Of a stretch of DNA of 64,000 nt, positions 42,714-62,156 are shown piece by piece (position 1 is the stretch's first letter; the number at the start of each line of letters is the position of its first letter). A program made the position numbers and the translations under genes. The notes under the pieces were generated by a model. The model did not search any database and was not told the DNA's origin. It saw only the letters and a list, made by a program, of their open reading frames with translations. This stretch comes from a virus: the IMG/VR virus record IMGVR_UViG_3300021963_000001, positions 85,107 through 149,106 of that record; one strand, given 5' to 3'.

Positions 42714-43451
42714 TTATTGCAGTTTGTTTTTCGTTTGACCCACCGATTTCGCCAGAAGGTCCCATTCGTTTTCGTCTTGCTCGATCAGTTTTTCCTCTCC
42801 CCTGTCTATTTTCTTGACCAAGGCCTGGAAACTTCTTGCCTTAATCTTGAAGTTCCACCCAACCCCAGGAGCCATGTTCTCTGCCGTGAATGGGATTAGA
42901 TCGATGAACGCTTCATCGCAAGGCACACCCAGCGTGCCAGCCAGGGATTCAAGATCGTCCCATTCCGTGGTCAGGGCACCGCAAGCCTTTCCTTTGAAAA
43001 TGGTCACCGTGCCGTGGTAGATTTCCTTTTTGGGGTCTGTGTGGATCGTGATCGGGCCTGACTTGCCTTCAAACGCGTTCCGCATCTTCTCCCACACCCC
43101 AGGGGCAAAGTCCTCCCAGATAGCCTGTTCGTCACTCCACATGGAGTAGCGAAGATCAACCGACACCTCCTCGGCTGGTTTGTCCTCCATTTCCTTCCTA
43201 GCGAAGAACCTCAATGTCGGAGCGTGTTTGCTGCCGCAAACGGACATCTTCAAACCGTAGCTGTTGGCAACGGATCGGATGTGGATCAAACATGCCTGGA
43301 CATCGTTCTTCAGACAACAGACTTCGCTCCTCTTCAGCTTGTCATAGTCGGAACCGTAAAGCTTGTCGAGAACCGACTTGCACTCGCCGTCAACGGGGAA
43401 AAGCCCCCGTCCCAGAATTGAATTCCGCAGTTGCAATTTGCATTTCAACAT
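42714..43451 (-). CDS. Hypothetical protein (C-terminus inside a promoter repeat)
   Basis: 245 residues. No family recognised. The last codons (GQTKNKLQ-stop) are made by a copy of the bipartite repeat, so the promoter-like element overlaps the coding end. The upstream gene follows after a short gap. Confidence 0.72.
   Translation of the reverse strand: MLKCKLQLRNSILGRGLFPVDGECKSVLDKLYGSDYDKLKRSEVCCLKNDVQACLIHIRSVANSYGLKMSVCGSKHAPTLRFFARKEMEDKPAEEVSVDLRYSMWSDEQAIWEDFAPGVWEKMRNAFEGKSGPITIHTDPKKEIYHGTVTIFKGKACGALTTEWDDLESLAGTLGVPCDEAFIDLIPFTAENMAPGVGWNFKIKARSFQALVKKIDRGEEKLIEQDENEWDLLAKSVGQTKNKLQ
42716..42741 (-). promoter_or_regulatory. Bipartite promoter-like repeat, A type (copy 1)
   Basis: Box 1 GGGTCAAAC (variant), 8-nt spacer, box 2 AACTGCAAT. 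Start codon 19 nt downstream. It lies within the 3' end of the upstream gene. Confidence 0.6.
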
Positions 43452-43476
43452 TAAACTGTCCTCCTAGAAAAGTCAA

Positions 43477-43689
43477 TTACTTTGCCAAACGGAACACCGA
43501 ATTCTTCAGCTTAAGCTCGTTGCCCCTCATGAGGGTCGCCCAAGCCTCTGCCCAGCGCATCTTCAGTTGCCTGGCTGCATCGTGAACCAGAGACACGGAA
43601 ACTTTTTCAGAGAGCGGGTAAAGCTGTCTGTACCCCGTCCGATGTTCCAGTTCCAGGTACTTCCAATTGTACGGGTCCGAGTTTTCCAT
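43477..43689 (-). CDS. Small hypothetical protein
   Basis: 70 residues from ATG 43689, AAGGAG 10 nt upstream. Overlaps the next-listed gene by 83 nt in another frame; either could be shortened. Confidence 0.62.
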   Translation of the reverse strand: MENSDPYNWKYLELEHRTGYRQLYPLSEKVSVSLVHDAARQLKMRWAEAWATLMRGNELKLKNSVFRLAK

Positions 43690-43951
43690 CGGCCAACATC
43701 TCCTTAAAAATCTTGTCGCAATACCGTGTCGCCGACTGTAGGTTCGTTTTGTAGGGGTTCTTGCCCCAACATCCCCACAACACATCACCTGTGCTATAGT
43801 CGTTGATTGAACAAACCCAACCCCAACTAGGAAGTTCGCTTTCGTAGGCGATCAGCAGGTAATTTTTACCATTAGCCTCGACATGTTTGAACACTCCGTT
43901 GTCGTTTCCCATCGTCCTTTCGCCCAGTCGCCAGCCGTAAACCGTCTTCAT
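43607..43951 (-). CDS. Hypothetical protein
   Basis: 114 residues from ATG 43951, overlapping the previous stop as ATGA. No family recognised. Long overlap with the following gene. Confidence 0.65.
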   Translation of the reverse strand: MKTVYGWRLGERTMGNDNGVFKHVEANGKNYLLIAYESELPSWGWVCSINDYSTGDVLWGCWGKNPYKTNLQSATRYCDKIFKEMLADGKLGPVQLEVPGTGTSDGVQTALPAL

Positions 43952-44142
43952 CGTCCCCATTCCCTTTCCAGAAAGTTAGCGATCTTGTCCGCAGTCGTTT
44001 CGCCCAGGTCCCAACCCAGCACATCCACCCAGTGCCGCAGCAGTTTCCCGCACTCATCGACCAGTTCGTCCACGCTCAAGTCCTTTAAGAACTCGACATC
44101 TCCGAAGGCGTTTGCCGTGTACAGTTCCGACAACCTTTTCAT
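43948..44142 (-). CDS. Small acidic helical protein
   Basis: 64 residues from ATG 44142, GGAGG upstream. Pattern DVEFLKDLSVDELVDECGK. No family recognised. Confidence 0.68.
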   Translation of the reverse strand: MKRLSELYTANAFGDVEFLKDLSVDELVDECGKLLRHWVDVLGWDLGETTADKIANFLEREWGR

Positions 44143-44351
44143 TGTGACACTTCCTCCGTAATCTTTCTCCAATCAACATGTGGATCGAAAGGTGGACCGC
44201 GATCCACGATCCATTTTTTCTTCTCGCATCGTTGCGTCCACTCAAACCAACCCTGGCAAACAGGCTTGTCTTTCATATAAAGCCAGCCACCGACGCGACC
44301 GACAACACCCAAATGAATCGCAATCGCCTTCGCCAATTCCAGATGTGTCAT
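44139..44351 (-). CDS. Small hypothetical protein
   Basis: 70 residues. Trp-rich, basic middle (CQGWFEWTQRCEKKKW). No family recognised. Confidence 0.68.
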   Translation of the reverse strand: MTHLELAKAIAIHLGVVGRVGGWLYMKDKPVCQGWFEWTQRCEKKKWIVDRGPPFDPHVDWRKITEEVSQ

Positions 44352-44352
44352 T

Positions 44353-44595
44353 TTATTCTGTCCTTGTTACAAAAATCACCTTCTTGGAAACCGCTGCCTT
44401 GGGATCGACCAGGATTGCGATCTTGGTCGTGTATTCCCCACCCAAGAGCCTGAGCCTCATGACATTACCGCTGACATACCGGTCTGTCCGGACATCAGGC
44501 CGGTCAAAACCAATCGTTTGCCCAACCTTCAGTTTACGCATCTTGGTCAGGCTAACTTTCCCTAAATCGGGCAGTTCGGTATTCTTGTTCGCCAT
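44353..44595 (-). CDS. Small hypothetical protein
   Basis: 80 residues from ATG 44595, overlapping the previous stop as TGATG. Beta-rich; no motif. Confidence 0.68.
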   Translation of the reverse strand: MANKNTELPDLGKVSLTKMRKLKVGQTIGFDRPDVRTDRYVSGNVMRLRLLGGEYTTKIAILVDPKAAVSKKVIFVTRTE

Positions 44596-44993
44596 CACGC
44601 AGCCTCCTGGAAGAAAACCCTGGGCTTGCCGTCCACGCTGGTCAGCAGCACCACCCCCGCGGTCTCGAGCTTTTTCCCGTCGCCGTCCACAAAACTGTCC
44701 ACCTTGTAGGGGTTGTAGTAGGCAGTCTTGTCTCTGGGCATACTGTTGATGAGTTTGCCAGCCTCGATGGGGTCGGTCACGATCTCCCCCTTGACTCCGG
44801 CATGAACCAGCTTTTTGCCCAATGCCCTCACCCGATCCCGGCCACCTGGCTGAACAACGAACTGAACATTCTTAATCAGAAGGTTCTCGTCATGTAAAAT
44901 GACTTTCCCCTCGCTTGACTTTGCAGACCAGACCACCCCTGGGTGGTGGAGATTCCTGTAGACGAACGCTGTCAGCTTTCTCTTTTGTCGCAT
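44595..44993 (-). CDS. Basic hypothetical protein
   Basis: 132 residues from ATG 44993, GGGGG site upstream; an ATG at 45014 is an alternative. Alpha/beta with a basic N-terminus (RQKRKLTAF). Overlaps the gene upstream by about 100 nt. Confidence 0.65.
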   Translation of the reverse strand: MRQKRKLTAFVYRNLHHPGVVWSAKSSEGKVILHDENLLIKNVQFVVQPGGRDRVRALGKKLVHAGVKGEIVTDPIEAGKLINSMPRDKTAYYNPYKVDSFVDGDGKKLETAGVVLLTSVDGKPRVFFQEAA

Positions 44994-45147
44994 CCGGACT
45001 GTCCCCCGTGTCATTGTTGAAGAAGACTCTGCTGACTTCCTTCATCAGCAGCAGCAAATCCTTGTTTGGCAAGATGGACGAACCGTGCAACTCAATGATC
45101 TTTGCGAGTTGCACGGCCGCCTCCTTGGACATCCTCACCATTTTCAT
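44890..45147 (-). CDS. Hypothetical protein
   Basis: 85 residues from ATG 45147, overlapping the previous stop as ATGA. The last part overlaps the next gene. No family recognised. Confidence 0.62.
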   Translation of the reverse strand: MKMVRMSKEAAVQLAKIIELHGSSILPNKDLLLLMKEVSRVFFNNDTGDSPDATKEKADSVRLQESPPPRGGLVCKVKRGESHFT

Positions 45148-61258: not shown

Positions 61259-61319
61259 GTGTGAAACCCCCGAGTAAGCGTTCGCCCACACCGTGTGAGC
61301 GTTTGCGCCTCTCACCCCA

Positions 61320-61461
61320 ATTGCAGTTTCGGCGAGGTTTGGCTAAGATATTTTTTGGGGGTGTTGTTTGTGCCTAGGTATGAGTGCAGTTGGGGCGGCG
61401 TTTGGCTCACTTTTTTCGCTTGCTTTTCATTAATTTTTGACCGGCCAGGGTCGGCCGGTAC
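61320..61461 (-). promoter_or_regulatory. Cassette: A 61320-61345, B 61384-61409, palindrome 61439-61461
   Basis: Start codon 62 nt after the A repeat; leader contains CTCGGGG before the start. Confidence 0.76.
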
Positions 61462-61480
61462 ACGGCCATCCCTAGGACAA

Positions 61481-61520
61481 ATAAAAAAGGCCAGGGAGGG
61501 TTGCCCCTCCCCGGCCCTGG
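61481..61520 (-). terminator. Strong terminator
   Basis: GGCCGGGGAGGGG / CCCTCCCTGGCC stem followed by TTTTTT. Confidence 0.9.
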
Positions 61521-61532
61521 GCCTAGACCTAG

Positions 61533-61820
61533 CTATATGCCCATCGATTCCTTGACCATGTGCCAGGCAAGCATGGTTCGTTCCGTGTGCTTTCCCATCT
61601 CCCACTTGTTTGAGAGCAGACGGCCCTCCCCCTGTGGGGCCTCCTCGTTGGCGTAGACATCCATGAGGATGTGGGATGATCCCGCCTCTTCCAGGCTGAC
61701 CTGGACCATGGCGATTTCCCCGTCCATGAGACGGCCCTGTATCTCGCCCAACACATGGGCCAGGTCCTTGCGAATCTCGTGCTTCGTGTTGCGGACCATG
61801 TAGGTGTTGCATGTGTACAT
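61533..61820 (-). CDS. Hypothetical protein
   Basis: 95 residues from ATG 61820. Mixed helical, with no family recognised. Confidence 0.72.
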   Translation of the reverse strand: MYTCNTYMVRNTKHEIRKDLAHVLGEIQGRLMDGEIAMVQVSLEEAGSSHILMDVYANEEAPQGEGRLLSNKWEMGKHTERTMLAWHMVKESMGI

Positions 61821-61854
61821 GTGTGTGTCTCCCCGAGCATTATTGCTCACCCTA

Positions 61855-61994
61855 ATTGCAGTTTGGCCAAGGTTTGGCTCAGGAAAATTTTTAGGGAGTT
61901 GTGCGAATATCTAGTGAGTGCAGTTGGTGGCCGGTTTGGCTCACATTTTTGCTTGCTATTTTGTAATAATTGACCGGCCCAAGAGGGCCGGTAC
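61855..61994 (-). promoter_or_regulatory. Cassette: A 61855-61881, B 61918-61943, palindrome 61972-61994
   Basis: Part of the 499-nt gene-free stretch 61821-62319. Leader pairs GAGC with GCTC, then GGGGAGA. No supported CDS in the stretch. Confidence 0.76.
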
Positions 61995-62080
61995 AAGGCC
62001 GGACCAGGGCATAGGGAAGATGGGGAAGCCCTGGGGATTGATTGGTGCCTGGCTTCTCACCGTCGCCGTCTCATGGTAGA

Positions 62081-62156
62081 GTGCAGTTCCCGGACGGTTT
62101 GACTCACATTTTTGCTTGCTATCATAATATATCGACCGGCCTATCAAGGCCGGTAC
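62081..62156 (-). promoter_or_regulatory. Orphan cassette: B 62081-62106, palindrome 62134-62156
   Basis: B repeat with no A copy and no gene immediately downstream. A CCAGGGC/GCCCTGG hairpin lies at about 62007-62034. It could drive a short RNA. Confidence 0.6.

Follow-up and report, generated by a model that had tools for sequence, protein, structure and literature searches.

Dispersed two-box elements in the apparently early region of a phage genome as probable phage-specific promoters, with re-lettered counterparts in related phages

What reads a two-box sequence that recurs, always in one direction, along the apparently early genes of a phage? The question is raised by the 64,000-nucleotide (nt) stretch analysed here (the window), which covers positions 85,107 to 149,106 of the virus record IMGVR_UViG_3300021963_000001 and carries the dispersed element GAGCCAAAC-N8-AACTGCA. 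With up to three mismatches allowed, the window has 28 matches, which lie between 42718 and 62105 and all belong to the minus strand, versus 0.62 on average and at most 3 in dinucleotide shuffles; this confirms the 28 copies at 42.7-62.1 kb in the direction of the genes that an initial annotation of the window had listed. A motif search over the whole genome, proposed in that annotation, gave 27 matches at up to two mismatches in the 149,106-base record, every one within the array and none outside it, and the reversed control pattern had 0 matches in the whole record. From the computed copies, direction, geometry, terminators, footprint and re-lettered elements of relatives we infer promoter activity, the identity of the reader and the timing; at a probability of about 0.66, the 28 copies would be the promoters of a phage-specific early regulon that is read by the host core polymerase with a phage sigma factor.

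The two boxes are separated by 8 nt in 28/28 copies, while the gap columns 10-16 of the aligned copies hold 0.03-0.44 bit and the box columns 1.2-1.9 bit, so the constant gap of variable sequence described earlier holds throughout. The consensus of box 1 is (T)GAGYCAAAC, and box 2 is longer than AACTGCA, as a T follows two bases further on in 27 of 28 copies, giving AACTGCA-[A/C]-T. The first base of the gap is C in 21 copies, and the positions 5-10 nt ahead of box 1 hold an A-tract (AAAAAT). The two copy types of the initial annotation, gene-proximal and upstream, were also recovered: 16 copies are gene-proximal by eye (AACTGCAa.., with GGGTGAG next in most) and 12 are distal (AACTGCACTc..), while a scripted rule gave 15 and 13, scoring as distal the copy at 54910 that the count by eye takes as proximal. 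Nine clusters of two or three copies and seven solitary proximal copies make up the array, with a distal-to-proximal distance of 62-64 nt, or 53 nt in one unit. The placement of proximal copies before start codons stood, and its range changed from the annotated 19-63 nt to 13-63 nt past the end of the copy, where an automated search found an ATG with a Shine-Dalgarno-like stretch. The copies, located by motif search and by reading of the aligned copies, with terminators from a terminator scan, are as follows.

42718..42741, minus strand: single proximal copy (GGGTCAAAC-N8-AACTGCAAT)
46233..46256, minus strand: single proximal copy
47970..47993, minus strand: single proximal copy
48534..48557, minus strand: single proximal copy
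50559..50582, minus strand: proximal copy of a pair
50622..50645, minus strand: distal copy; terminator 50736-50703 upstream
53032..53055, minus strand: single proximal copy
53431..53454, minus strand: proximal copy of a triple
53493..53516, minus strand: middle copy of the triple, distal-type letters
53557..53580, minus strand: distal copy of the triple; terminator 53661-53628 upstream
54910..54933, minus strand: single proximal copy by eye (AACTGCAAGAAGGGTGG), then an ATG with a Shine-Dalgarno-like stretch
55886..55909, minus strand: proximal copy of a triple, upstream of a GP88-like gene
55948..55971, minus strand: middle copy of the triple, distal-type letters
56012..56035, minus strand: distal copy of the triple; terminator-like stem 56124-56111 and hairpin 56072-56053 upstream
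57414..57437, minus strand: proximal copy of a pair, upstream of an ArdA-like gene
57477..57500, minus strand: distal copy of the pair; terminator 57610-57583 upstream
59043..59066, minus strand: proximal copy of a pair (53-nt spacing)
59096..59119, minus strand: distal copy of the pair; terminator 59200-59167 upstream
59817..59840, minus strand: proximal copy of a pair
59879..59902, minus strand: distal copy of the pair; terminator 60011-59984 upstream
60288..60311, minus strand: proximal copy of a pair
60350..60373, minus strand: distal copy of the pair; terminator 60474-60443 upstream
60812..60835, minus strand: single proximal copy; terminator 60959-60934 upstream
61322..61345, minus strand: proximal copy of a pair
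61385..61408, minus strand: distal copy of the pair; terminator 61518-61487 upstream
61857..61880, minus strand: proximal copy
61919..61942, minus strand: distal copy
62082..62105, minus strand: outermost distal copy; terminators 62315-62284 and 62270-62239 upstream

The position of the copies relative to terminators is the most direct indication of their role. A scan of 44-64 kb found 48 terminator-like sites versus 19 in shuffles, and the strongest minus-strand terminators are followed, about 50-135 nt downstream, by a cluster's first copy, giving a unit that runs from terminator to distal element, proximal element, short leader and ATG. Because the clusters begin just past strong intrinsic terminators, a promoter is required between terminator and gene, and the main conserved features of this interval are the elements and a hairpin-AGCAAGC block. 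Compared with two close relatives (L022 and L033, about 95% identical to the phage, with a range of about 90-99% around the compared sites), substitutions amount to 0/126 in box 2, 3/162 in box 1, 6/144 in the gap and about 4% in the flanks, a pattern that matches the footprint expected of a protein-contacted site. The region also looks early, with small open reading frames (ORFs) and an ArdA-like antirestriction gene. Promoter activity of the elements is thus strongly supported by placement, footprint and relatives, as the initial annotation had proposed in reading them as a phage-specific two-box promoter, while its suggestion that one of the sigma-like factors is the reader leaves these proteins as candidates only.

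The hairpin CCGGCC..GGCCGG, followed by AGCAAGC within 60 nt, precedes distal copies at about 50-62 kb of the window and also occurs in L127 and L125. There are 9, 3 and 5 such pairs in types A, B and C (the letterings of this phage and of two groups of relatives described below), on the array strand only, and the combination was not found in Rfam.

The fate of the element in related phages is the unusual part of the finding. An exact motif search of IMG/VR gave 20 contigs, among which only L022 and L033 are close relatives with the array, the lone matches elsewhere fitting chance. A query with the terminase gave 75 loci; the letters of this phage did not occur beyond chance in the 18 relative records searched, and 60%-identical relatives had three-mismatch chance matches only. 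The search in relatives foreseen by the initial annotation found the exact letters only in L022 and L033, and it found re-lettered arrays at corresponding places in other relatives. These arrays were detected by a de novo gapped-word search and alignment, early runs of which were swamped by tandem coding repeats. Type B (G017, G018, G023; terminase 91-93% identical) has GAGACAATW-N8-ACAGGCACT or ACCTGCACT, and type C (G016, G021; 75%) has GAAAAAGnn-N8-CGCTGCAC in distal and GAAAAAGnn-N8-CGCTGCTCAAATAG in proximal copies. Type D (G008, G015, G025, G028, G030, G032; about 61%) reads TTGAATAAW..ACGAATAAT, type E (G005, G009, G024, G026) GTAAATAAW..ACGAATAAG, and type E' (G011, G027, G029) CTAAATAA..ACGAATA. 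In short form, examples of the relatives' elements are GAGACAAT..GGCACT, GAAAAAG..GCTGC, TTGAATAA..ACGAATAAT and CTAAATAA..ACGAATA. Spacing, strand bias and early-region position are kept across these arrays; both boxes of types A and B align base for base with identical spacing, and, counted from the beginning of box 1, offsets 23 and 25 are A and T in all types, type C proximal copies excepted. The arrays go together with homologous early genes; among their products, the GP88-like protein has about 51% identity in both G016 and G017, while the protein of 58032-58256 is 63% identical in G017. Judged by these alignments, the promoter letters appear to have changed far more than the architecture.

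Two observations concern type D alone. Divergent copies that overlap or nearly do so were found at L147 7965/7987 and G025 6172/6195, an exception to the single-direction rule, and G032 (L173, about 3494-4203) has three copies with the sub-variant TCGGATAAT besides the usual ACGAATAAT, which perhaps form a second element class.

Which class of polymerase would such a layout suit? The initial annotation had held that it fits neither sigma70 nor sigma54. The part on sigma70 had to be given up: when the TGC of box 2 is taken as an extended -10, GAGCCA lies 17 nt upstream of the -10, which is a normal sigma70-family layout, so the element appears to be a sigma70-family promoter in which only the letters are unusual. 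The spacer between GAGCCA and the -10 A[A/C]Tnnn is 17 nt in 28/28 copies and in type B, and 17 or 18 nt in types C-E, depending on the chosen start of box 1. Where the primary-sigma consensus has TTGACA/TATAAT, the letters are GAGCCA and AATWAG/ACTCCT, and a sigma70 scan gave 9 promoter-like sites versus 7.8 in shuffles. If transcription starts 35 nt after the beginning of box 1, the A-tract of types A and C would occupy about -45 to -40, the usual place of a proximal UP element. The part on sigma54 held, since the GG of GG-N10-GC (-24/-12) falls within the freely varying gap, and this layout was rejected. A T7-type layout was considered and likewise rejected, as was strict helical phasing between distal and proximal copies as a general rule, the distance being 62-64 nt here and about 60-62 nt in type C, but 62-84 nt in type B.

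The proposed mechanism would then be as follows. The host core RNA polymerase would carry a phage-encoded sigma70-family factor, similar to extracytoplasmic function (ECF) sigmas, and would recognize box 1 GAGCCA(AAC) as the -35, a 17-nt spacer, the extended -10 TGC and the -10 hexamer A[A/C]Tnnn, with the A-tract serving as a proximal UP element. Proximal copies would start the transcripts of individual small early genes, while distal copies would act as tandem second promoters of the same units, just past a strong terminator that keeps the units separate. The cascade would begin with host sigma70 reading TTGATT-17-GATATT before the gene at the head of the array, upon which the phage sigma would be made and the array read.

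One point in favour of a phage-sigma regulon is that the phage encodes sigma factors and no polymerase was detected. In line with the sigma-like factors of the initial annotation, three sigma-family proteins were found above or near family cut-offs, together with a weak fourth; sigma1 adjoins the terminase (record 725-1282), and the others lie in the window.

15593..16108, minus strand: sigma-family protein 2, region 4 strong and region 2 weak; no element copies nearby
24573..25091, minus strand: sigma-family protein 3, regions 2 and 4
29976..30497, minus strand: weak fourth sigma-like protein, region 2 at E = 0.036; matches the G028 head sigma at 1.6e-4

The unseen phage polymerase that had been offered as another reader found no support. 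The multisubunit polymerase family PF00623 had no match in this record and three relatives, its control matching in 14/14 named genomes; the single-subunit family PF00940 was not found either, but its control was also empty, so this search cannot prove absence. In types D, E and E', the array opens with a gene for an ECF-like sigma (regions 2 and 4), divergent from sigma1 and the terminase, and a hidden Markov model of these head sigmas run against all ORFs of this phage had sigma 3 as its top match (E = 3.9e-7), 17 kb from the nearest element. In type E', an element lies about 92 nt upstream of the head sigma gene in G029 and G014, and one with a single mismatch about 52 nt upstream of the head sigma ORF start in G011, as would be expected of autoregulation. 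The type D head sigma has only a degenerate element copy upstream, in three genomes, and no convincing copy precedes the head sigma in the other genomes, including G005, G007 and G027.

In this phage, as in relatives of types B and C, the array is opened by a different gene.

62788..63897, minus strand: head gene, the first leftward gene before the array, encoding an orphan all-helical protein, homologues of which hold the corresponding place in types B and C; the start may be the second Met
63912..63940, minus strand: site upstream of the head gene that resembles a sigma70-type promoter, TTGATT-N17-GATATT, its second hexamer being preceded by TG

Corresponding sites of relatives, with hexamers read by eye, are TTGACA-N17-GATTAT (G018), TTGACA-N17-GATAAA (G022) and TTGACT-N17-TTTACT (G016). 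Across types A, B and C, the head protein measures 358-483 aa and is 22-41% identical between lineages, versus 70-89% for sigma1. Such a fast-changing protein, alongside changing promoter letters and among neighbours that are 70-91% alike, is a candidate for the reader, and it is possible that the head protein reads the elements. The more specific proposal, that it is a promoter-specificity factor too diverged for sigma profiles at the place where relatives carry an ECF-like sigma, is tentative, with the odds well against it; if true, these phages would form a natural series in which sigma and promoter have changed specificity together. A sigma-factor identity of the head protein was not supported: Pfam gave none to E = 10, hhalign against the D/E sigma set gave a probability of about 0, and a PDB sequence search gave no support. 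Its two AlphaFold models have a predicted local distance difference test (pLDDT) score of about 50; the top Foldseek matches of the first were sigma factors at E >= 0.7, and the second gave no sigma-factor matches.

Several points weigh against a phage sigma as the reader. Neither sequence nor dependable structural evidence of a sigma factor was found for the head protein in types A, B and C, and sigma 2 and sigma 3 are encoded far from the array. The start of box 1 in types C-E was our own choice, hence the spacer of 17 or 18 nt, and the distal-copy -10 letters ACTCCT are unlike a sigma70 -10. In types A, B and C, a 5' hairpin is stronger past proximal copies than past distal ones, and it starts about 30-31 nt downstream of the first base of box 1; if it belongs to the RNA, transcription would start a few nt closer than in standard sigma geometry, which counts slightly against this assignment.

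Could a host protein account for the elements instead? A host alternative sigma with the host polymerase, whose letters would differ as hosts differ, would suit the early look of the array, and the letters track guanine-cytosine content, which is 32-36% in types D, E and E' and about 53-60% in types A, B and C. Types A and B, however, share 91% terminase and 88% sigma1 identity and probably have similar hosts, yet their letters differ; the sites that precede the head genes of types A, B and C and of G022 look like ordinary promoters of the sigma70 type, and the type E' sigma gene itself carries the element, so we regard a host sigma as improbable. Somewhat less probable again is a phage activator that binds both boxes and recruits the host sigma70 polymerase. 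Middle promoters of T4 work in this way, with the MotA box replacing the -35 and the host sigma70 -10 kept; a phage-specific box at the -35 is common to both, although here the -10 letters are phage-specific too. The box letters are kept more strictly than is usual in sigma promoters, and an AT-rich TAnnnT-like stretch follows box 2 in types D and E, both of which speak for an activator. In type E, however, about 36 nt separate the start of box 1 from the onset of the Shine-Dalgarno stretch, and with the -10 at the TATA stretch further downstream, an assignment we rejected, transcription would start inside or after the Shine-Dalgarno stretch; moreover, the spacing equals 6+17, and no MotA-like gene was identified.

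Binding by a repressor that blocks elongation was considered because the stoperators of cluster A mycobacteriophages (L5, TipsytheTRex) likewise exceed 20 in number, are asymmetric and share the orientation of transcription (PMC9283540), and GP88-like and L5-gp82-like proteins are encoded in this phage. Stoperators are repressor-bound 13-mers spread genome-wide (PMC9283540), whereas the present elements have two boxes with a free 8-nt gap, are confined to the early array and are absent from the late half. They also lie, often as tandem pairs, past terminators, where transcription must start, as promoters would, and no tyrosine integrase was detected in this record, G005 or G008, though no repressor search was made; a stoperator role is therefore very improbable. 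We hold a role in RNA, whether as an antitermination site, a start-associated translation signal or an mRNA stability element, to be just as remote. Proximal copies do stand before start codons and are followed by the 5' hairpin in types A, B and C, but distal copies lie 60-85 nt further upstream, just past the terminator and with little hairpin, no pairing occurs between the boxes, Rfam gave no matching family, and a gap of constant length and free sequence fits a protein bound to DNA.

The closest precedent for promoters read by a phage sigma is found in Salmonella phage 7-11, in which the sigma factor gp47 with the host core reads eight late promoters, GTAAtg-(16)-aCTA; compared with its relative phiEco32, the genome positions of the promoters correspond while the letters differ, and more sigma/promoter pairs of this sort were predicted by the authors (PMC8948821). 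Both systems have bipartite sigma-type promoters that are re-lettered between relatives at kept positions. Unlike the eight late promoters of phage 7-11, the present 28 form an apparently early array with tandem distal copies and a terminator per unit, and they extend the precedent to a graded series over several lineages, although here the reader is a candidate. The start-associated sequences (SAS) and extended start-associated sequences (ESAS) of cluster K mycobacteriophages are also repeated, directional and beside the start codons of many small genes, the ESAS being 17-bp inverted repeats with a variable spacer (PMC3203893); they resemble our element in repetition, direction and start-codon adjacency, while the latter is not inverted and its gap is fixed. 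What the present series adds is that sets of dozens of promoters appear re-lettered between close phages with geometry, place and direction unchanged, in at least five letterings (A, B, C, D, E/E') within one terminase-defined group. In the low-GC types, candidate sigma genes keep a constant place beside the array. The series touches a long-standing question, the joint change of a regulator and all its sites.

Some further features of these genomes were recorded. The two record ends (window 63874-64000 and record 1-127) share 127 nt exactly, hence a circular or circularly permuted genome of 149 kb that is probably complete; the same 127-nt overlap occurs in G008. No relatives of the head protein or the terminase were found in the bacterial and archaeal genome collection, and cultured phages yielded neither similar DNA nor a relative of sigma1. 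In the 206-kb record of G005 (L136, L143), the element at L136:89 recurs with its flank, almost unchanged, at L143:9406; the record is apparently a genome of 149 kb that carries a repeat of about 57 kb at its end. In several relatives (L096-L100), the terminase match is about 650 bases longer than in this phage, which suggests an insertion in the gene. A 1345-aa ORF (7867-11904) had no match in PHROGs, NCBIfam, cultured phages or the compared D/E relatives. The profile match of a cytosine methyltransferase ORF (34144-36591) is split by a long central stretch without a match (residues about 277-597), which looks like an intein or other insertion. One tRNA-Met gene was found at 28152-28223 on the minus strand.

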